Source: an uncultured Lachnospiraceae bacterium
Lineage (GTDB): Bacteria > Bacillota > Clostridia > Lachnospirales > Lachnospiraceae
NCBI GenBank assembly: GCA_947366105.1
Contig: CANAZK010000010.1
Location: 1-34,512 of the forward strand
Length of the DNA stretch: 34,512 bases
Direction of reading: 5' to 3'
In this document: one piece after another, positions 1,557 through 29,961 of the stretch
Layout: each line of letters opens with the position of its first letter
Position numbering within the stretch: position 1 is the stretch's first letter
Made by a program: the position numbers and the translations under genes
The notes under the pieces: model-generated
What the model was told of the DNA's origin: nothing
Seen by the model: only the letters and a program-made list of their open reading frames with translations
Databases searched by the model: none

Positions 1557-3689
1557 ATGAACTATCAGACACACAACTCCGATTCCCTCGCTTCTGTCTG
1601 GATTGCAGATAACGGGGATGGAACTTACACAAACAATGTACTGTGGGCAGACTTTCCCGATACCGATATCATCCGTGTAGAAGACACTTATTACCTTATT
1701 TCTACAAGCATGCACCTGTTTCCAGGGGCGCCGGTTCTAAGTTCCAAAGACCTCGTCCACTGGCATTTTGAAAGCTATGCTCTTCCTTATGACCAGGTAC
1801 TTTCCTTGGCAAACCGGGAACACGCAATGGATCTGCAGCAGGGACATATTTACGATATGGGCGCTTGGGCAGGAAGTATCCGATATCACTCCAAACTACA
1901 TAAATTTTACTACCTCGTAAATATGCAGGATGGAACTCCCGAGGAATATGCTGTCCTCAGTGTTTCCGATACTGCCCGCGGTCCCTGGACGCTTTACCGG
2001 CTAAGTCAGAGATTATATGATCCCGGACTGCTTTTTGATGAGGATGGAACCGCTTATGTCATTCACGGACAGGGGCAGCTCTACCTGACACGCTTAAAGC
2101 TTGTAGACCTGGACACAGGAGAATACGCGGTTGATGAGACATTTGCCGATGCAGATGAGAATGGATGCCGCAACAAACCTTTTTACAATTATTCCGGCGG
2201 ATATTATAACGAGGGGTCCCATGCCTATAAGATAAACGGCATTTATTACATACTGACTACTCCGACATGGGGAAATACGGGCACTAAAAAAGAGATTTGT
2301 ATACAGACAAAAGATCTGATTCATGGTCCTTACGCAGTCCGTGATATCCATTCCGGTTTTATGAATTTTGGCGAAAACGGCATTCACCAGGGCGGCATCG
2401 TCGATGTTCCATTGAAAGACGGGACAACAGAATGGTGGTCTATTATTTTCCAAGACCGACACAAACTTGGACGTACTCCTACTTTGCAGCCTGTATTTTG
2501 GGAAATGGACAATGACGGACTCTTATGGCCAATGATCGGCGCAAAAGGCAAAAATGGCTGCCTGTCCGTTTCTACGTTTCAAAAGCCATTCATAGAAACC
2601 GGAATTACTAATATTTCTACCGTACAGATAGCTTATAGAGACGACTTTTCGTCAGACACACTTGATTTATGCTGGCAATGGAATCACATTCCAAACGACA
2701 AGAAGTGGAGTCTCTCCCAAAGACCCGGATATCTGCGGCTCTATACCGCTACTGTCACAGAAGATTTTTCCAAATCACAGAACACATTACGCCAGCGCGT
2801 CATCGGTCCGGAAAGCTCGGCAGCAATTAAACTTGAGCTCTCCCATATGACTTGCGGAGACCTTGCCGGACTTGCCGTACATCAGCAGGAATATAACTAT
2901 ATCGGCGTACAATGTATCTCCGAAAGCGGAGAAAAGAAACTCCTAATCAACGACCGCGGTACGGAAGTCCTTTCCCAAATACTTCCATCCCACACGAACA
3001 CGCTTTGGCTTTGCGCCTCCGCAGTCCGGATGGAATACCGCAGTACATTTTCTTATAGTTTGGACGGCATACACTACCAAAACTTTGGGGACGTCTACGA
3101 AATGCACTATGGAGATTACGTTGGCATGGGCTATGGCATTTTTCATTTTGCCACAAAAGCACTTGGCGGATACGTAGACCTTGATTGGTTTGAACTTACC
3201 ACAAACACTCCAAACCATAATTTAAAACCTTTCGGGACACAAATCGAAGCCGAACATTATGACAATCAAAAATACGAGTTGTATGAAGGACAGGAACCAC
3301 AGTACGTGAATAATCCTCTGACTACATGGACTTCCGATATCCATCAAACAGAAATTCTGACTAAATGGGGCAGCGCTTACGATTTGGCAGTCTCCAATCT
3401 CCATAACGGAGACTGGGTACAATATAACAGAATTGATCTTGGTGATGGCGCCAGCGAGGTGATTATCCGGGCTTCTTCTACCATTTCCGGCGGACGGCTC
3501 GAATTTCGGGAAGATACTTTGGAGGGCAGATTACTTGCATCCGTCACACTTCCAAATACAGGAGGAGAAGAATGTTTCCAGAATCTGTATGCCAAAACAG
3601 ATCCTTCCCTTACCGGAATCCGGAAACTGTTCCTCATCTATTACGGAACCGATAACACTTGCCGGGTCAATTGGTTTTTATTTCATTAG
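1557..3689 (+). CDS. Glycoside hydrolase family 43 (beta-xylosidase/alpha-L-arabinofuranosidase type) with C-terminal beta-sandwich and CBM6-like domain; no signal peptide
   Basis: GH43 motifs WADFPDTDIIRVEDTYYLISTS, LYDPGLLFDEDGTAYV and YNEGSHAYKINGIYY; C-terminal IEAEHYDNQ...NGDWVQYNRIDLG...VNWFLF is CBM6-like. Confidence 0.88.
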   Translation: MNYQTHNSDSLASVWIADNGDGTYTNNVLWADFPDTDIIRVEDTYYLISTSMHLFPGAPVLSSKDLVHWHFESYALPYDQVLSLANREHAMDLQQGHIYDMGAWAGSIRYHSKLHKFYYLVNMQDGTPEEYAVLSVSDTARGPWTLYRLSQRLYDPGLLFDEDGTAYVIHGQGQLYLTRLKLVDLDTGEYAVDETFADADENGCRNKPFYNYSGGYYNEGSHAYKINGIYYILTTPTWGNTGTKKEICIQTKDLIHGPYAVRDIHSGFMNFGENGIHQGGIVDVPLKDGTTEWWSIIFQDRHKLGRTPTLQPVFWEMDNDGLLWPMIGAKGKNGCLSVSTFQKPFIETGITNISTVQIAYRDDFSSDTLDLCWQWNHIPNDKKWSLSQRPGYLRLYTATVTEDFSKSQNTLRQRVIGPESSAAIKLELSHMTCGDLAGLAVHQQEYNYIGVQCISESGEKKLLINDRGTEVLSQILPSHTNTLWLCASAVRMEYRSTFSYSLDGIHYQNFGDVYEMHYGDYVGMGYGIFHFATKALGGYVDLDWFELTTNTPNHNLKPFGTQIEAEHYDNQKYELYEGQEPQYVNNPLTTWTSDIHQTEILTKWGSAYDLAVSNLHNGDWVQYNRIDLGDGASEVIIRASSTISGGRLEFREDTLEGRLLASVTLPNTGGEECFQNLYAKTDPSLTGIRKLFLIYYGTDNTCRVNWFLFH

Positions 3690-3706
3690 AAAGGATAAAT
3701 CACTAT

Positions 3707-4333
3707 ATGAAAAATATTTTTAATATAGACAATAAATTCTTTACCTTTATGTCAAAAGCAGCGGACATAATGATACTTAACATGCTGTTTATACTGACTT
3801 CGCTTCCGATTATTACAATCGGGACTTCCCTCACAGCGCTGTATTCCGTATCTTTGAAACAAAGCGCCGGAACTTCCGCCTATGTTGCGAAAGAATACTT
3901 TCATGCATGGAAAGAAAATTTCAGACAGAGTACCATCTTATGGGTTGGTTCCCTGTCCGCTTTTATCCTGCTATGTCTGAACCTAGCATTAAAAGTAGAC
4001 GGAACGTTTTATTTCTTTATGCGTTTTATGATGTTTCTTTCTTTAGTGTTATATATCATGGTTACACTCTACGCGTTTCCGCTGCTTGCAAAGTTTGAAA
4101 ATACATTAAAACATACAATTGTCAATGCGTTTTTAATGTCCATCCGACATTTTTTCACAACTTGTACCCTATTTGGAACGGCAGCACTTTTTCTTTTCAT
4201 TACCGTTGCTTATCCGTCCATGATTAAACTGACTTCTATGGCATGGTTTTTATTCTTCTTCGCAATCATTGCAAGAATTCAGGCAACCTTGTTAGACAAA
4301 ATTTTTAACCGATATCTTTCTCAATTTGAATAG
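3707..4333 (+). CDS. DUF624 (YesL-like) multi-pass membrane protein
   Basis: MKNIFNIDNKFFTFMSKAADIMILNMLFILTSLPIITIGTSLTALYSV is typical of YesL/DUF624; GAAAGGAT RBS upstream; ATG at 3707 preferred over the ORF-track start at 3659. Confidence 0.85.
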   Translation: MKNIFNIDNKFFTFMSKAADIMILNMLFILTSLPIITIGTSLTALYSVSLKQSAGTSAYVAKEYFHAWKENFRQSTILWVGSLSAFILLCLNLALKVDGTFYFFMRFMMFLSLVLYIMVTLYAFPLLAKFENTLKHTIVNAFLMSIRHFFTTCTLFGTAALFLFITVAYPSMIKLTSMAWFLFFFAIIARIQATLLDKIFNRYLSQFE

Positions 4334-4335
4334 GC

Positions 4336-4381
4336 AAAAGAAAGGATGAAACACTTTGTAACACGTTTCATCCTTTCTTTT
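4336..4381. terminator. Bidirectional intrinsic terminator between convergent DUF624 and GH35 genes
   Basis: Perfect 17-bp inverted repeat AAAAGAAAGGATGAAAC (4336-4352) / GTTTCATCCTTTCTTTT (4365-4381), 12-nt loop, A/T tracts on both sides. Confidence 0.85.
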
Positions 4382-4400
4382 CCATCATATTCACCTTCTC

Positions 4401-6146
4401 CTATCCTAATTTCGGTTCGTCCATCAGACGAATCGTGTCTGCTGCTTTTCCGTCTGTCTCGAACAAGACAATCTCATTTTCTCCTTTCCGTAACATCGGT
4501 CCCGGGATATAAAGCCTTCTCTGCGGCCCCTCATCCCAAAATCGCCCAATGTTTCTTCCATTCACGAAAGCCACGCCTTTTCCGAATCCCTCCAAATCAA
4601 GGAACGTATCTCCTGTTTCATCTGCCCGGAATGCAAATTTATAAAATGCAGGCATTCCTTCCTGATATCCGCGGGAATAATCCACCTTTTCCACATTGTC
4701 TAACGGAAGGGAATACATATCCCATCCCATATGGAATGTCCCGTTAATTAGCACACCCTGCGTAATTCCCTTTTTCTGAAGCTCGATTTCCGGACCATAA
4801 TTGACCCTTCCCATATTTTCCATAAGGATGTCCAAAGAACCGCTCTCTTCCTTTAAAGTAAAGCCGTCTCTTCTGTCCATCTCATCGTCATCGCGAATCT
4901 CCACTTGTCTGCCATCCGCAAAAATAATTGCACGATCCATGCCGCCGCGGATTTTGCAGGAGCCAATTTCTTTCCCTCTCGTAATCGTACTTCTGTAAAG
5001 TACATATCCATAATTCTGTCCCAGCTCTTCCATAGATAACGGCATCGCATCGCGAACCGGAGAGGATAACGTATCAAGTGTTTCAAACAGACCCGCCTTT
5101 ACCCGAAGAGAAATCTCCCCATACGCCTTTCTTACAATCGGCGTTGTAAATTCCACTTTCGGAATCTCTCGGAATTTGGAAATCACTTTCTGGAATTCCA
5201 GATATTTTTGCGTAATCCGTCCGTCTTCTGTAAGCGGCGCATCATAATCATAAGAGGTTACATCTGCACCGATTTTATCATCATAATTAGAACCATTCAT
5301 AAAACCTAAATTGGTTCCGCCATGGAACATATAAAAATTCACATGTCCTCTCTCCAGCATTTCCTCTAGAGATTTTTTATGTTCTGCATAATCCACCACA
5401 CTGTGGTCTTTCATCTTCCAATGATCAAACCAGCCTACCCAGAACTCCATGCACATTAAAGGCTGGTCGCCGATGATTTTCTTCACCTCCTCAAAACGCT
5501 CTTTGCCTTTGGAGCCAAAGTTTGCAGTTCTCCATGCTCCCTCCAGATATCCATCATCCATGTACTGTCTGCCAGGTCCATCCGATGTAACAAAAGGAAT
5601 CGTAATACCTCTTCCTGCCATCATATCTTTCAGCGCCTGCAAATACTCTTTATCATTTCCATAGGAACCATACTCATTTTCAATCTGAAGCATGAGAACC
5701 GGTCCTCCCTTTGTAATCTGATATGGGGCAATCAACGGAATCAGTTTATCATAATAACGCGCAACGCAGTTTAAATATACTTTGTTGTAACAGCGCAGCC
5801 GAATTCCCTGTTTTGTCAAAAGCCATGCCGGGAAACCGCCGAACTCCCACTCCGCACAGATATACGGGGATGGACGTAAAATAACATATAATCCCAATTC
5901 CTGTGCAATCTCAATAAATTTGCAAAGATCTGCACCGCCCTCAAAGCAGAATTCACCTTCTCTTGGTTCATGGACATTCCACGCCACATAGGTCTCAACC
6001 GTATTACAGCCCATTGCCTTTAATTTTTCCAAACGATCCCTCCAGTATTCCGGTACCACACGGAAATAATGAATACTTCCGGAAATAATCTGAAATCTTT
6101 CCCCATTCATGTAAATCTCATCTTTTATTTCAAATATATTCTGCAT
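4401..6146 (-). CDS. Glycoside hydrolase family 35 beta-galactosidase
   Basis: MQNIFEIKDEIYMNGERFQIISGSIHYFRVVPEYWRDRLEKLKAMGCNTVETYVAWNVHEP; acid/base QIENEYGSYG; nucleophile region CMEFWVGWFDHW. Start at 6146 has GGAGAAAGGA RBS; the longer track ORF would run into the GH2 gene. Confidence 0.93.
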   Translation of the reverse strand: MQNIFEIKDEIYMNGERFQIISGSIHYFRVVPEYWRDRLEKLKAMGCNTVETYVAWNVHEPREGEFCFEGGADLCKFIEIAQELGLYVILRPSPYICAEWEFGGFPAWLLTKQGIRLRCYNKVYLNCVARYYDKLIPLIAPYQITKGGPVLMLQIENEYGSYGNDKEYLQALKDMMAGRGITIPFVTSDGPGRQYMDDGYLEGAWRTANFGSKGKERFEEVKKIIGDQPLMCMEFWVGWFDHWKMKDHSVVDYAEHKKSLEEMLERGHVNFYMFHGGTNLGFMNGSNYDDKIGADVTSYDYDAPLTEDGRITQKYLEFQKVISKFREIPKVEFTTPIVRKAYGEISLRVKAGLFETLDTLSSPVRDAMPLSMEELGQNYGYVLYRSTITRGKEIGSCKIRGGMDRAIIFADGRQVEIRDDDEMDRRDGFTLKEESGSLDILMENMGRVNYGPEIELQKKGITQGVLINGTFHMGWDMYSLPLDNVEKVDYSRGYQEGMPAFYKFAFRADETGDTFLDLEGFGKGVAFVNGRNIGRFWDEGPQRRLYIPGPMLRKGENEIVLFETDGKAADTIRLMDEPKLG

Positions 6147-6165
6147 GTCCTTTCTCCTGTCAAAT

Positions 6166-9100
6166 TTAAAAATATATACGGTAAACCCGCACGCCTTTTC
6201 CCGAAGCCGATTGTACCTGTATTTCCACTGTTCCATCACAAGTTTCCCACCATACAGTAATTGGTGTCACAGAAATGATTCTATGGTCTTTCGGGTGTTC
6301 TACTACCTTACCGTCAACACGCACCTCTGCCTTTTCATCAAAAGCCAGCGCCTGTATCTTCAATTCTTCCTGCTTTGGAAGTCTGTATTCCAAACATTCC
6401 GGAGCAAATTCAAGATCATTGTTCTTCACCACAATACCGGAAAGCGCATACTCATTGACTGAATCCACTCCAAAGTCCTCATAAATCTCGAACTGCTGAA
6501 TCCCCGCACAAAGTCTTCCATCTACCTGCAGAAATCTGACTTTCACATATCGCACGTTTTGCGCAGTAAAATAATCCAGCACACCATTTGACCACGAAGT
6601 CCTCCGATTCTCCGCCCGCTTCTCCCAGTGCGCTCCATCCAAAGAAGTATAAATCTCATATTCATAAAACGTGCAGTCTGAACCCATCTGTCCTCCGACA
6701 AAGACTTTCGCATTACGCACATGATGCACACCGCCCAAGTCTACCTGCCATTCCTGAAATCCTTCTCTCGGATTCTTCCCAAACCAAATTCCGTCATTCC
6801 ACACATCCTGTGCGCATTCCGGATTCACAGATGCCGTTGCTGTTTTTCCAAAAGCAATATTTTCAGAAAGCTCTGTCTCTTTCTTGGCGAGCTTTTCTTC
6901 CCACAGATACGGAGACAACAATACAACCTCTGTCGGGACTTCCGCCCGGAATTCAATACGCATTTCTTTCGCGCCCTCTACGCAAAGCTTAACATCTGCG
7001 ACTTTTCCTCTATATCGTAACACATCATCCAAATAAAAGAAAAGCTCTGCTTCTCTGTCTCCGCTTAATACTTTATATCCGGTCTGAAAATACGTCTCGC
7101 CTCTTAACTTCCATACAGTAGTTCCTTTCAGGAGGATACTTTCAGGATACTGTTCGCCGTCTGCCTCCGCCTTAGAAAGCGCTCTCGCATCTCCTGTCCA
7201 CTCATGGCTTAACAAATTGAATCTTCCCTTACACAAGGTATCTGTTCCAGCAAAAACGTTTCCATCGATTCCACCTCTTTCAGACGGTTGAAGTTCGAGT
7301 TCTGTCTCCCCTTCCAAAAGCCCTTTTCCGGATGCGCATACAGTAATCTTTCCTGAAGTGTGCCCGCTTCTTATGTAGGCAGATGCAATTCCCGCCTCCG
7401 CCCACGCCGGATTGGTTCCGGCCAGCAGATTTCCATCCCCGACGATCCGGGCATCCCCCTCGATTGTGAAGAAAATCTTCTGTTCTGCATCTGTACAAAG
7501 CACACCCTGTTCATCCAAAATCTCTGCCCGGACAAGTACCAAATCATTTCCGTCCGCATGAACCGGAACTCCAAGTGTATCCACCGATACTCGCAGATGA
7601 TGAGGTTCTCCCGCTGTTTTCCTTACATCCTCTGCAAGAAGATTTTCTTCGGAACCATATCCCCTCGCCCTCAAAAGTGTTCCTGTTTCATATGGAACAG
7701 AGGCAAAGTAAAATGGCGGATGCGGTAAATATGCGGCATTCTCTTCCTTATACGGAACCTCTTCTTTTTCCCACAGGACTTCCCCCTGACGTTCCACTGT
7801 CAAAACGACTTTCGCCACATTGCTATACACATAGATTTCTCTATATGCATCCGAACCGATTGTCACCGGCTTATCACTTTTATCTAAAGAAGGCGCATGC
7901 TTGGTCCACTCGCTTGCAATATAAAGAATCGTCCGTTCTTCCTGCTGGCTTGCATATGCCCAATACGCAGTCTTCGGTATACGGTATCCGTCCCAGATTC
8001 CACACGGAGACATAAGACTTCCCGCACCGCGGCTGTCTATCCCTGTCCAGATTGCAGCGCCGACAAATGCCGGATTCTCACTCCGTATCTGATAGCACCT
8101 TGCCAGACTGTAATCCTCCGGCAGATTTCTAAATAACATCTGATTCGCTTTCACAAGATTTCTCGCCTCTCCATGCGGATAGAATCCATCTGTAGTTCCT
8201 CTTGTTACTCTCCGGGAATGAAAATCACCATAATATTCAATATAGCAGTCTGTATATTCTCTTAAGAACATCACTGCTTTTTCCGTCTTCTCAAGAGGAT
8301 CCTGAAATCCATATATGAAATCAGCCTCACAGTCAATTCCATTCGCTTCCGGTCTTGCATCATATCCATAACTCTCTGCCGCTATTTTTGCAGACTTCTG
8401 CTCTGCAAGTGCAGTAAGCGCAGATTTTCTGGAAAAGCCATACGGAACATGGTACGTCTCATTCAACACTGTTTCGTACGCAAGAACGCAAGGGTGATTC
8501 CTGTCTCTCCGCACCATCTGGCGGATATTCTCCCACACTCTTGCTGAAAATGGTTCCGGCTGATCCGTCGGATACCACTGCCATCCAGGCGTTGCTTCAA
8601 ATACAAGAATCCCCAGCTCATCACATGCATCCAAAAATGCTTCTGACATCGGATAATGGGCTGCTCGTACTACCTTAAAACCTGCTTCCTTAATCAGAAT
8701 TGCATCTCTTCTCTGCATAGATGCAGGCGCTGCATTTCCGATAACCGGATAATCCTGATGGCGGTTCACCCCGGATAAGAAAGGCTGTACTTCACCGTTA
8801 ATGAGAAGTCCCTTTTCCCTATCCACTTCAATTTCCCGGATTCCAAACCGGGTTGTTTTTTGTTCTGTTACTGTTCCTCCAACCGAAATTGTAACCCGAA
8901 ATGTATAGAGAACCGGTGCACTAAGATTCCAAAGCGAAGGTTTGTCTATCTTAAATTCAGCCAATACATCCTGCACCGAATTTGCCGCAAGAGAAATACT
9001 TTGTTCGTCTTTTTCCACGACTGTTTTTACTCTATCTAACACTTCACATAGAACGGTAATCTGTTCTTCCGTATTTCTAGTAGAACGCACCTGTACTTTT

Positions 9101-22890: not shown

Positions 22891-23955
22891 TCAAGACCTT
22901 TTACTTACCCCTTCCCACATTTCATTTAATAAAATTTTTGAAAACACGTAGTCCTCTTTATGTATTTTATCTATCTTTCTAATGATTTCTTCATCAGAAT
23001 CCTGATTGTTTGAACACGTTCTTTTTAAAATAACATTTCTTAACAAAGTACTCATTCTAATCAATTCCGAACACTTATCCCTTAATATCTCCACATTTTG
23101 AACCAAACCTTTCCCAAAGAAATACTCTATTCTTTTTGCCATTAATTCTTTATGGAGCACTAAAACATGCGCCGCTTTTACCGCATCCCAATTCTTCATA
23201 TACATTTGTTTTAATCCGTCATAAAAAGCAAGACCAAACACAAAGTCAAAACCATGCTCCACATTCTCTGCAATTGCATCTTCAGATTCATTTGTAAAGT
23301 AATGATATAAGCCGTCCATATACATATTTTTTGATTCAATATAATTTTCTAATTGAAGAATTGTATTTTTATAATCAAACTTAAAATCTACCGCATCTAC
23401 TTTCTTAAAAAATCGATATAGTATATATTTATAATCCAACCCTTCAATATCAAAGGCTTTTTCAACTTCTTCAAAGCTGCATGTTTCAAAACTCAATTTC
23501 CCGTCTGCAAAAAAATCAGCCACATAAAAAATACCTTTTTCCTGATCATATCCATATAATAACGGGTTGTGGGTGGTGTTCCGCTTACTTGCATAATTGC
23601 TGATACATGCTCTGTTCAAATATGTATAAGCGTAAAAACCGTTGGAAATTTGATTCATAAAAAATTGGGGTATATTCGATGTATTATTTATAATAAAATC
23701 CCTTGTCATTCTATTTTCATAAATAAAATAGCAATTGTACCACATATCCGTTCTAAAAAAATCATTATAACCAATTTTAGGGTTCATTCTTATATTAATG
23801 AAATTTCCCATTATCCAATCCATTTCTGCTTCCGTATCTCCAATAACAGATAACAGAAACGAATCCGCAGGTATGTGATTAATAATAGGTTTATGAATCG
23901 GCAATATTATTTTCTTTTTCATTTTACATAACGCATTCCTTCCAAAATACGCCAT
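22891..23955 (-). CDS. Protein resembling BtrH N-terminal-like proteins seen near non-ribosomal peptide synthesis clusters; function unknown
   Basis: Central HNPLLYGYDQEKGIFYVADFFADGKLSFETCSFEEVEKAF resembles the YGYD..KQ.FYVADFF...F signature of that family, from memory. Start could be 23955 or 23922 (MKKKII). Confidence 0.6.
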   Translation of the reverse strand: MAYFGRNALCKMKKKIILPIHKPIINHIPADSFLLSVIGDTEAEMDWIMGNFINIRMNPKIGYNDFFRTDMWYNCYFIYENRMTRDFIINNTSNIPQFFMNQISNGFYAYTYLNRACISNYASKRNTTHNPLLYGYDQEKGIFYVADFFADGKLSFETCSFEEVEKAFDIEGLDYKYILYRFFKKVDAVDFKFDYKNTILQLENYIESKNMYMDGLYHYFTNESEDAIAENVEHGFDFVFGLAFYDGLKQMYMKNWDAVKAAHVLVLHKELMAKRIEYFFGKGLVQNVEILRDKCSELIRMSTLLRNVILKRTCSNNQDSDEEIIRKIDKIHKEDYVFSKILLNEMWEGVSKRS

Positions 23956-24147: not shown

Positions 24148-24753
24148 ATGAAAGAGAAATCCTACATATCCCGGAAAGAACAAGCTGTTCTGACCAAAAA
24201 GAAAATATTTGATACCACCGTGCTTCTCATAAAAAAGAAAGGTTACAATAAAATTACAATCCGCGAGATTTGCAACAATGCCGAAATCTCAGTGGGTACC
24301 TTTTATCTGTATTTTCTCTCCAAAGACGATATCCTTTTGGATATCTATAACGGGCTTGTCCAAAACCTTACAGATGCACAGCTTCCAGATTCCAACCTTA
24401 CAGTTTCCGGACAGATTCTACAGTATATTGAATACTTTTTGAGACAGCTTCAGAACTCCTTTGACAAAGATCTGATTCAGGAAATCTATCGTATTAACAT
24501 TTCCTCCGGACAGGATGTTGTTCTTTCCCCGGATAATACTTTATTTCAGTCTATTGTGCGGCTTCTTGAACATCCAACTGATACGGAGCATGTTCTTTAC
24601 AGCTGTACTCCGGAAACTTTAACCCGCAGAATCATGATTTTCGTTCATGGATTTCTTATGCACTGGCTTGTAGAAGAATCTGACGATTTTGAAAAAATGC
24701 TCGGTGAGTGCCTCACCGAGCTTAATCACTATCTCTCTCTTTATTTTGTGTAA
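24148..24753 (+). CDS. TetR/AcrR-family transcriptional regulator
   Basis: N-terminal HTH KKKIFDTTVLLIKKKGYNKITIREICNNAEISVGTFYLYFLSKDDILLDIY; AAGGAG RBS. Confidence 0.93.
   Translation: MKEKSYISRKEQAVLTKKKIFDTTVLLIKKKGYNKITIREICNNAEISVGTFYLYFLSKDDILLDIYNGLVQNLTDAQLPDSNLTVSGQILQYIEYFLRQLQNSFDKDLIQEIYRINISSGQDVVLSPDNTLFQSIVRLLEHPTDTEHVLYSCTPETLTRRIMIFVHGFLMHWLVEESDDFEKMLGECLTELNHYLSLYFV
24692..24721 (-). terminator. Intrinsic terminator of the minus-strand pepT operon, inside the tetR coding sequence
   Basis: Perfect 10-bp stem GCTCGGTGAG-TGC-CTCACCGAGC (24699-24721) with an A6 tract on the left, read as ATTTTTTC on the minus strand, 20 nt past the pepT-like stop. Confidence 0.85.
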
Positions 24754-25976
24754 TCTGCCGCCGCGAGACGGATAATATTTACCACAGCTTCCACAGCTTT
24801 TTCCATGGTCTGTACGGAGATAAATTCATACACGCTGAATCCGTTACGCCCGCCTGAAAACAAGTTCGGACACGGGAATCCTTTGTAAGAAATCGTCACC
24901 CCGTCCGTACCGCCGCGTACCGGAAGAAACTTCGGACTGAGTCCCGTCATTGATATTGCTTTCTCCGCTATTTCCTTTATTTCCGGATAACAGTCAATCT
25001 TCGGCTTCATATTCAGATAATAGTCCTCCACAGACACTTCAAAAGTGTCTTCGCCATAACAACCGTTTAAAAACACTGCGGTTTCCTGTATCCTCTTCTT
25101 CCGCGCTTCGTAACCCTCCTTACTGAAATCCCTGATATGACATGTCATTACACATTGATCCACACTTCCAAGAATATCCGTCACGTTATAATAACCTTCG
25201 TAGTCAAGGGTACTGGACGGCGCCTCGCTTTCCGGAAGGCAGGAAATAAATTTCTGTGCCAAAAGTACGGCATTTTTCATTTTATTCCTTGCCATTCCCG
25301 GATGAATACTCCTTCCATTTACTTTAATCGTCGCAATAGCGGCATTAAAATTTTCACAGTTGATTTCACCGGGAGTCCCTCCCTCCAGTGTAAATCCAAA
25401 ATCAACCGGAATCTTTTCCATGGAAATATAATCCGTACTGTACCCCAGCTCTTCATCCGGTGTAAATACAATATAAATATCTCCGTGCCGGATTTCCGGA
25501 TGCTCGATTATATATCTGACCGCCTCCATAATCTCCGCAATACCGGCCTTGCCGTCTGCCCCGAGAAGCGTCGTACCGTCAGTAACAAGCAGATCGTCGC
25601 CAATATACTCCCTCATAACAGGAAATTCTTTTGGCGAAAGGATAATATTTTTACCCCTGTTCAAAATAATATCGTCTCCCTGATAGTTTTCCACAAGCCT
25701 TGGTCTGATGTTCTCTCCCAGCACCTCCGGATTCGTATCCAAATGTGCAAGAAATGCCACCGCCGGTACGTGTTCAGAGATATTCGCCTCCATATGCGCA
25801 TACAAAAAACTTTTATCGTCAACCTCCACATGCTCCACTCCCATCTCTAGAAGTTCATCCTGAAGCAGTTCCGCCAAAAGTCTTTGATTCTCATTACTCG
25901 GACAACATTTTTTCTGCTCATCAGCCTGTGTGTCGATTGCAACGTATCTGGAAAACCTTCTAACTATTTCTTTCAT
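24741..25976 (-). CDS. PepT-like M20 peptidase paralogue with altered metal-site residues
   Basis: PepT fold motifs FLAHLDTNPE, LLGADGKAGIAEIM, VFTPDEELG, IHPGMA, PVRGGTDG; but TLEGG in place of TxDGG and NGFSVYEF where PepT has N-x-H. Confidence 0.88.
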   Translation of the reverse strand: MKEIVRRFSRYVAIDTQADEQKKCCPSNENQRLLAELLQDELLEMGVEHVEVDDKSFLYAHMEANISEHVPAVAFLAHLDTNPEVLGENIRPRLVENYQGDDIILNRGKNIILSPKEFPVMREYIGDDLLVTDGTTLLGADGKAGIAEIMEAVRYIIEHPEIRHGDIYIVFTPDEELGYSTDYISMEKIPVDFGFTLEGGTPGEINCENFNAAIATIKVNGRSIHPGMARNKMKNAVLLAQKFISCLPESEAPSSTLDYEGYYNVTDILGSVDQCVMTCHIRDFSKEGYEARKKRIQETAVFLNGCYGEDTFEVSVEDYYLNMKPKIDCYPEIKEIAEKAISMTGLSPKFLPVRGGTDGVTISYKGFPCPNLFSGGRNGFSVYEFISVQTMEKAVEAVVNIIRLAAADYTK

Positions 25977-26024
25977 ATCTGTTTGCTCCTTTCGTCCTCT
26001 TCTTCCCGGGCAAACGTCGTGACC

Positions 26025-27251
26025 TTATGATTCTGCAAATAGACGAATAATGTTTAAAATCACTTCCATTGCCTTCTCCATTGATTGTACCGTACAATAC
26101 TCATAAATGGAATGGGAATTTGCGGATCCCATAAAAATATTTGGACATGGCATACCCATAAAAGAAATAGAAGAGCCATCCGTGCCGCCGCGGATTGGAA
26201 TGACAATCGGCTCAACCCCTGCCATTTTCATCGCTTTTAACGCATTTTCCTTGACAACCGGACATTTATCGACTTCAATTGCCATATTCAGATAATAATC
26301 TTCAATTTCGGTTTCAAATGTTCCTTCCCCATAATAACCGTTTAAGTGCTCCGTAATCTCCTGCACCCTTTTTTTCCGATACTCATAGCCATCTTCAAAG
26401 AAATCGCGGATTGCAATTGTAATCTCTGCCTGGTCTACGCTTCCGCTGATGTTGGTTACATGGTAAAAACCTTCATAGCCTTCTGTATTGACCGGAGATT
26501 CTCTCCAAGGAAGATGATTGATAAAATCCGTTGCAAGCATAATGGCATTTTTCATCTTTCCTTTTGATTCGCCCGGATGAATCGCAACTCCGTTTACCTT
26601 AACCGTTGCCGTGGCAGCGTTAAAGTTCTCAAAATTAATTTCTCCCAGTTCACCGCCGTCCATTGTATATCCATACTTTGCCGGAACATTTTCAATCGGA
26701 ATATACTCTGTACTGTTTCCGATTTCTTCATCCGGCGTAAAACAAATATGTACTTCTCCGTGCTGGAATTCCGGATGCTCCATAATGTATTTCGCAGCCT
26801 CCATAATCTCTGCAACTCCGGCTTTGTCATCTGCGCCAAGCAAAGAATTTCCATCTGTTACAATCAAATCCTTTCCTATGCTTGCCTCAAGATATGGGAA
26901 TTTTGAGATACTGAGAACCGCGCCTTTTTGTTCATTCAGCACAATATCGCTTCCGTCCCAGTTTTCTACAATTCTCGGATTTACATTTGCACCTGTTTCA
27001 TCCGGCGCTGTATCCAAATGTGCAAAAAAGGCAATCGGCGGAACATCCTTCTCCGTGTTAGCCGGAATGTGTGAAAATACATACGCCTTATCATCCATCC
27101 ATGCGTTGTCAATTCCCATTTCCTTTAATTCATCCACAAGAAGCTGCCCAAGTACAAACTCATTTGCAGAGGCCGGAACCGTCTCCGCCTCCCATGTGGA
27201 TTGTGTATCAATTTTCACATAACGAAACAAACGTTCAATAATCGGTTTCAT
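26025..27251 (-). CDS. pepT: Peptidase T (tripeptide aminopeptidase), canonical copy
   Basis: FFAHLDTAPDETG, LLGADDKAGVAEIMEA, CFTPDEEIG, YTMDGGELGEINFENFNAA, IHPGESKGKM, PIRGGTDGSSISFMGMPCPNIFMGSANSHSIYEY. Confidence 0.93.
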   Translation of the reverse strand: MKPIIERLFRYVKIDTQSTWEAETVPASANEFVLGQLLVDELKEMGIDNAWMDDKAYVFSHIPANTEKDVPPIAFFAHLDTAPDETGANVNPRIVENWDGSDIVLNEQKGAVLSISKFPYLEASIGKDLIVTDGNSLLGADDKAGVAEIMEAAKYIMEHPEFQHGEVHICFTPDEEIGNSTEYIPIENVPAKYGYTMDGGELGEINFENFNAATATVKVNGVAIHPGESKGKMKNAIMLATDFINHLPWRESPVNTEGYEGFYHVTNISGSVDQAEITIAIRDFFEDGYEYRKKRVQEITEHLNGYYGEGTFETEIEDYYLNMAIEVDKCPVVKENALKAMKMAGVEPIVIPIRGGTDGSSISFMGMPCPNIFMGSANSHSIYEYCTVQSMEKAMEVILNIIRLFAES

Positions 27252-28880: not shown

Positions 28881-29846
28881 TTATTCACCCCAGTAATTTT
28901 TCATAAATTTTTCTGCATTTCTATAACAAATTCCTTCAATTTCACTTCCCGTAAATCCGTTATGCTCCATAGCCGAAACCAGCTTATCCATCTGATGGCA
29001 TCCTTCAATCTCCAGCAAATCCTCAACTCCGTCAAAGTCCGTGCCGAGACAAATCACTTCGCTGCCGCCCACACTCATAATGTGCCGTATATGGCGCAGC
29101 ATCGCCTCAACTGTACTCTTTCCGTCTTCCCGGAGAAATGCCCCGCCCAGATTCAGTCCGGTTACTCCGCCTTTTTCCGCAAGTTTCCGAATCATGTCAT
29201 CAGTAAGATTTCTTTCATGCATACAAACACTTCGTGCATTGGAATGCGTTGCAATAAACGGACGTTTTCCATGACGGAATACATCCTCAAATCCCGCATC
29301 GGATAAATGAGATACATCTACTACAATTCCAAGCTCATCCATCCTCTCCAGCGCTTCAAATCCAAACGGTTTCAGTCCCCGGTTTTGGTATTTGAGTCCT
29401 ACGTTCGGAAACCCGAGACAGTTTTCATAATTCCACGTCAAAGTAATTATGCGGACGCCATTCTCTGCAAGTTCATTTAGACGCTCAAGCTTATTTTCCA
29501 AAATACCGCCTTCTTCCACCGTTAAGAACGCTGAAAATTTTCCGTTTTCTTTATTTTTCAAATACTCCCGGTAATTTCCCGCAAGAGCTGCCGCCTCTGA
29601 ATGTTCGGCAATCTCACTTTTCAGCAGTTCACACATTGCTAATGCATCTTGATAAAAGCTTTCTTTTACCGGCTTTCCTTCAAACCACAAAAAGCACGCA
29701 AAAAATTGTGCCAGATTTCCAGATTCTATAAGTCTCTTCAAGTCTATATGCCCTTCATTCTGCCACAAATTTTCTTTATGATTTCCGGTTGTTATCAAAT
29801 CGTACAGACGCATCAGTGTGTCACAGTGAAAATCAATGATTCCCAT
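28881..29846 (-). CDS. Membrane dipeptidase / peptidase M19 (renal dipeptidase family)
   Basis: MGIIDFHCDTLMRLYD (M19 HxD motif), LTWNYENCLGFPN, VVDVSHLSDAGFEDV, ATHSNARSVCMHERNLTDDMIRKLAEKGGVTGLNL, ICLGTDFDG. Start at 29846 preceded by GGAGGGGGGAG. Confidence 0.92.
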   Translation of the reverse strand: MGIIDFHCDTLMRLYDLITTGNHKENLWQNEGHIDLKRLIESGNLAQFFACFLWFEGKPVKESFYQDALAMCELLKSEIAEHSEAAALAGNYREYLKNKENGKFSAFLTVEEGGILENKLERLNELAENGVRIITLTWNYENCLGFPNVGLKYQNRGLKPFGFEALERMDELGIVVDVSHLSDAGFEDVFRHGKRPFIATHSNARSVCMHERNLTDDMIRKLAEKGGVTGLNLGGAFLREDGKSTVEAMLRHIRHIMSVGGSEVICLGTDFDGVEDLLEIEGCHQMDKLVSAMEHNGFTGSEIEGICYRNAEKFMKNYWGE

Positions 29847-29920: not shown

Positions 29921-29933
29921 TTTATAGGCAAAT

Positions 29934-29961
29934 TTTATAATATAATAGATAACCTTGTCAA
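29934..29961 (-). promoter_or_regulatory. Candidate sigma-A promoter of the M19/yfcC/pepT operon (TTGACA - 16 nt - TATAAA)
   Basis: Minus strand TTGACA (29961-29956), 16-nt spacer, TATAAA (29939-29934). Confidence 0.65.

Follow-up and report, generated by a model that had tools for sequence, protein, structure and literature searches.

The window, a stretch of 34,512 nucleotides on one contig of an uncultured Lachnospiraceae bacterium, contains two adjacent genes for proteins of the peptidase T (PepT) family, referred to below as copy 1 and copy 2. They are the last of four genes on the minus strand, which in the order of transcription code for an M19-family protein, a transporter of the DcuC superfamily, copy 2, and copy 1 as the final gene before a terminator-like hairpin. 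The features, in positions of the window, are:

24148..24753, plus strand: gene of a TetR-family regulator that converges on copy 1, the two overlapping at their 3' ends (24741-24753)
24699..24721, minus strand: terminator-like hairpin of 10 pairs, 7 of them G-C, with a T run, right after copy 1
24741..25976, minus strand: copy 1, PepT-family protein of 411 aa with E198, F380 and G142 replacing Salmonella D196, H379 and D141; TIGR01882 (NCBIfam peptidase-T), 411 bits
26025..27251, minus strand: copy 2, PepT of 408 aa with complete metal ligands and catalytic residues; TIGR01882, 451 bits
27271..28860, minus strand: DcuC-superfamily (YfcC-like) membrane transporter of 529 aa; PF03606, 151.6 bits, the YfcC model scoring far below its cut-off
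28881..29846, minus strand: M19 'membrane dipeptidase' family protein; PF01244, 282 bits, likely start ATG at 29846 with AAGGAGG upstream
29932..29961, minus strand: promoter-like TTGACA-18-TAAAAT upstream of the M19 gene, with 11 of 12 positions matching; such sites are not above chance in this region

The gaps between the four genes are short, and this spacing, the shared strand and the terminator suggest that they form one transcript. Possibly, the operon is regulated by the TetR-family protein, within whose coding sequence the terminator hairpin sits. The longest open reading frame for the M19 protein starts at 29921, nearly on the promoter-like -10 box; the start at 29846 suits the family alignment better. 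A 354-aa protein without a Pfam or NCBIfam match is encoded at 22891-23955, within a low-GC stretch (about 0.31-0.33) that spans approximately 22.0-24.5 kb.

The two PepT genes have intact reading frames and are homologous from end to end, as the original prediction held, with an identity of 55% that points to an old duplication. Both proteins score far above the TIGR01882 cut-off of 286 bits. In the PepT tree they form a sister pair with a support of 100/100, and their branch lengths are alike (0.83 changes per column for copy 1, 0.70 for copy 2). Both were aligned to 1FNO chain A (Salmonella PepT) with the initial Met added, where the metal ligands H78, D140, E174, D196 and H379 fall at exactly these numbers. 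Copy 2 possesses all five ligands and reads H, D, D, E, D and H at the six aligned positions; copy 1 deviates from the ligand set at D196 and H379. The relevant codons are:

24837..24839, minus strand: copy 1 Phe380 (TTC), aligned with the site-2 zinc His (H379 in 1FNO)
25383..25385, minus strand: copy 1 Glu198 (GAG), aligned with the site-1 zinc Asp (D196 in 1FNO)
25449-25451, minus strand: copy 1 E176 (E174 in 1FNO)
25551..25553, minus strand: copy 1 Gly142, aligned with D141 of 1FNO, directly behind the bridging Asp; the position is Asp or Asn in 194/194 other PepTs
25554-25556, minus strand: copy 1 D141, the bridging Asp (D140 in 1FNO)
25743-25745, minus strand: copy 1 H78
26112-26114, minus strand: copy 2 His380 (CAT), at the H379 position

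The Phe, Glu and Gly of copy 1 and the complete ligand set of copy 2 had been predicted, and the alignment bears them out exactly, down to positions and codons. The proposed loss of a zinc ligand stands with a shift in emphasis. Judged by its sequence, copy 1 has truly lost the site-2 histidine through H379F, with a bulky hydrophobic side chain in its place (RNGFSVYEF in copy 1, ANSHSIYEY in copy 2). D196E, however, is the exchange of one ligand for another and no removal, because Glu is the normal ligand at this place in M20 aminoacylases and carboxypeptidases. Apart from E384, a conserved residue of the PepTs examined, the few positions around F380 contain no His, Asp or Glu as a replacement, and in sequence register no alternative His or Asp occupies the ligand position, the observation that had been named as speaking against a lost ligand. 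Copy 1 retains H78, D80, the bridging D141, the general-base Glu175, E176, and the lid residues H225 and R282, and thus has counterparts of both the catalytic D80 and the general base E173 of the Salmonella enzyme. Its changes at otherwise conserved positions that are absent from copy 2 include D198E, H380F, K230R, H264N, F262Y, and Y195F, with K230R and H264N (K228R and H262N in Salmonella numbering) located in the lid. Several of these changes lie in or near metal-site motifs or in lid motifs; those confined to copy 2 affect no ligand. Taken together, the changes of copy 1 may represent a single remodelled pocket. K230R, H264N, and G142 next to the bridging Asp, which occur in no other PepT of the survey described below, likely are on the substrate side. 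Directly before Ile281-Arg282, copy 1 carries Cys279-His280 (25137-25142), a place taken by Tyr-Ile in nearly all other PepTs; copy 1 moreover is cysteine-rich.

To assess how rare these replacements are, 194 other PepT proteins were surveyed, comprising copy 2, the Salmonella protein, two further paralogues of the same genome, and the best matches from searches of the genus, family, order, class, and phylum and of a named genome collection. This set is weighted toward the nearest relatives of copy 1 and was not drawn at random from the family; within it, H78, D80, D140, E173, E174, D196, and H379 are each present in 194/194 proteins. The lid residues H223 and R280 (Salmonella numbering) are likewise invariant (194/194); at D141, 165 proteins have D, 29 have N, and none has G. 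Copy 1 alone among the 195 sequences has another residue at D196 or H379, and these are the only two of 32 invariant columns from which it departs. When each of the 195 sequences was left out in turn, 182 showed no departure from the columns invariant in the rest, 12 showed one, and copy 1 showed two. The single departures never concern a ligand among the cases listed, and both departures of copy 1 do; two departures placed at random among the 32 invariant columns would both fall on the five ligands with a chance of 0.02. Going by its residues, copy 1 is a PepT homologue but probably no longer an ordinary two-zinc tripeptidase, and the label 'di-zinc tripeptidase' should not be applied to it, since it lacks the full set of five ligands that all 194 surveyed proteins, copy 2 among them, possess. 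In another genome of the family, two PepT genes lie about 2.2 kb apart (1563-6206) and both encode all metal ligands. Close multiple copies are thus not by themselves tied to ligand loss.

The searches covered 10 genomes of the genus, 397 of the family, 344 of the order, 341 of the class, and 399 of the phylum, together with the named genome collection and a further round through 395 relatives, in all approximately 1,400 distinct genomes. Among these, no orthologue of either copy was found; the matches listed are about 37-51% identical and all are ordinary PepTs. The paired-profile score fell from 860 for copy 2 to 511. A search of viral contigs gave no match, and among the best matches listed from plasmids none exceeded 45% identity. 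The finding therefore is a single occurrence in one draft genome that is 85% complete. The transporter gene of the window is absent from the nine other genomes of the genus. Eight of these nine do have the nearby dikinase gene, at 86-94% identity, and its neighbourhoods in five of the nine share no other gene with the window. Both results indicate that the operon is lineage-specific there.

Substitutions between the two copies affect 62-65% of the least conserved columns, compared to 11% (7/66) of the columns that are at least 97% conserved (Fisher p = 1.8e-13). Neither a broken frame nor changes made regardless of conservation, the marks of a pseudogene, are seen in copy 1. Synonymous sites between the copies are saturated (NG86 undefined, LWL85 dS 2.5), which makes dN/dS uninformative here. 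A strong ribosome-binding site, AAAGGAG, lies ahead of copy 1. The pattern of constraint, the branch length, the ribosome-binding site and the terminator-like hairpin fit a selected, expressed protein, and copy 1 probably is both well preserved and expressed. The earlier view that its changes do not reflect simple decay is well supported by the intact frame, the strong ribosome-binding site, the position in the operon, and the avoidance of conserved columns. A duplicate in an early stage of decay, with a frame still unbroken, would explain the ligand loss and the occurrence in a single genome, but is improbable: the duplication is old, yet the substitutions are strongly biased away from conserved columns, the signals for translation are in place, the branch length is not in excess, and one of the two changes at invariant columns is a functional ligand swap. 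An artefact of assembly or base calling might be suspected in a draft of 209 contigs that is 85% complete. However, the replacement of His by Phe requires at least two base changes and so is no one-base sequencing error, the gene of copy 1 is unlike that of copy 2 throughout, which argues against a collapse or chimera of the two, and the pyruvate phosphate dikinase gene on the same contig is 94% identical to that of a congener. An artefact thus is extremely improbable.

In comparison with 1FNO, the AlphaFold model of copy 1 (nine-row alignment, mean pLDDT 83) reached a TM-score of 0.93, and copy 1 is predicted to have the two-domain M20 fold of this structure. The mono-zinc DapE structures 3ISZ and 4O23 were among those named in the comparison. 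The model has low confidence at residues 177-179 and 355-363, near the active site and metal site, the model of copy 2 is poorer, and both are too coarse for metal geometry.

Copy 1 may be a remodelled PepT paralogue that holds at most a single metal and has a changed specificity, likely for substrates with a blocked or acylated N-terminus, a reading to which we give close to, but less than, an even chance. The retention of the site-1 His, Asp, and Glu together with the general base favours such a single-metal hydrolase. The narrower proposal, that copy 1 is a naturally evolved mono-metal hydrolase of the PepT family for N-blocked peptides, beside an unaltered sister in one operon, is tentative and, as formulated, rather unlikely. 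Stated for the metal site, the same claim is that the loss of the site-2 His and the D-to-E change at site 1 converted a di-zinc aminotripeptidase into this mono-metal hydrolase, and it is unlikely to the same degree. If metal 2 were held by another residue, such as the lid His280 or one in a remodelled loop, copy 1 could be an ordinary two-metal tripeptidase after all. His280, two residues before R282, does replace the Ile or Leu of 191/194 others, but it is located on a lid-domain strand and not near the site-2 position in sequence register, and we know of no M20 enzyme in which a lid residue serves as metal ligand; this explanation is very improbable. A stronger competitor, and quite possibly correct although we hold it to be somewhat less probable than a remodelled single-metal paralogue, is a catalytically dead pseudo-peptidase that either partners copy 2 in a structural or regulatory role, in a hetero-dimer formed via the lid/dimerisation domain, or binds peptides. 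Where M20 enzymes are dimeric, each active site is completed by lid residues of the partner subunit. A dead subunit could therefore still serve a live one, which would agree with the loss of the H379 equivalent in a protein that keeps the lid His and Arg and likely is co-transcribed with an intact paralogue. The dimerisation domain of DapE is required for catalysis (PMC4012986). In ArgE, removal of the equivalent His (H355A) made zinc-dependent activity undetectable and lowered Co(II) activity 380-fold, with one metal still binding (PMC4320195). The remaining metal binding and Co(II) activity of this variant speak for a single-metal enzyme, but from its lack of zinc-dependent activity a single-metal copy 1 may be inactive. 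Our literature searches found no work plainly on M20-family pseudo-enzymes and nothing usable on the oligomeric state of PepT. At odds with a dead subunit, D80, E175, and E176, which have no evident role but chemistry, are unchanged in a protein that differs from copy 2 at about 45% of its positions, and two lid residues (K230 and H264) are altered as well. With the general base and D80 in place, which points to chemistry, and the ArgE result pointing the other way, the single-metal hydrolase is preferred only narrowly over the dead partner subunit.

As a single-metal hydrolase, copy 1 would fold as PepT and bind no more than one metal firmly, with H78, D141, and E198 of site 1 as its ligands and Glu175 acting as base. 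It would cleave a substrate that is not cut by copy 2, most likely an N-blocked or acylated peptide or amino acid. This choice of substrate is suggested by the Glu at the D196 position, which in M20 enzymes goes with aminoacylase or carboxypeptidase specificity, whereas Asp is found in aminopeptidases and dipeptidases, according to a passage in PMC6271292 that cites Lindner 2003. Copy 1 has the aminoacylase/carboxypeptidase-type residue (E198) but does not group with CPG2, Acy1, or DapE; its best score is to PepT, and in the PepT tree it is the sister of copy 2. By analogy, the rule, which was derived in other M20 subfamilies, favours a changed specificity. The original prediction had left the choice between a pseudo-enzyme, a mono-metal peptidase, and a changed specificity rather than decay. 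Its rejection of decay and the loss of the His hold, the three options are not fully separable by sequence, and the Glu rule tips the balance toward the last of them.

From its gene content, the operon is best read as serving peptide uptake and breakdown. The transporter would import peptides, copy 2 would trim tripeptides with a free N-terminus, the M19 protein would split dipeptides, and copy 1 would deal with the blocked remainder. On another contig of the same genome (2-3557), a third PepT with all ligands is encoded beside a DcuC/YfcC-type transporter, followed by a PepV-like gene. On yet another contig (1-4268), a transporter copy 59% identical to that of the window lies between two genes of C45 acyltransferases/hydrolases. 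These neighbours suggest, without proof, that peptides or acylated amino acids are the cargo of the transporters.

The metal ligands of PepT are otherwise invariant in the survey, and copy 1 has replaced two of them with an intact copy alongside. The pair thus is a natural experiment on whether both metals are needed in M20 peptidases and on how aminopeptidases change their specificity. It also is a warning, because model-based annotation would name copy 1 a tripeptidase, both copies scoring as peptidase T.

Among known enzymes, copy 1 resembles PepT (M20B; 1FNO, 3IFE, 1VIX) in an identity of approximately 42% over the full length, the same fold, and the retention of H78, D80, D140, E173, E174, and the lid His and Arg. 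It differs from PepT in Glu for D196, Phe for H379, Gly for D141, K228R, and H262N, none of which occurs in copy 2. Pseudo-enzymes of other metallopeptidase families resemble copy 1 in that the fold is intact and the metal ligands are lost in one paralogue. Carboxypeptidase G2 and aminoacylase-1, also of M20, share its Glu at the D196 position but keep the site-2 His, act on carboxypeptidase or N-acyl substrates, and are distant in sequence. The mono-zinc form of DapE and ArgE H355A have one-metal M20 active sites like that proposed for copy 1, whereas wild-type DapE and ArgE have the second-site His, and DapE is only about 15% identical to copy 1. Site 1 of DapE is formed by His, Asp, and Glu, and exactly this set is left in copy 1.
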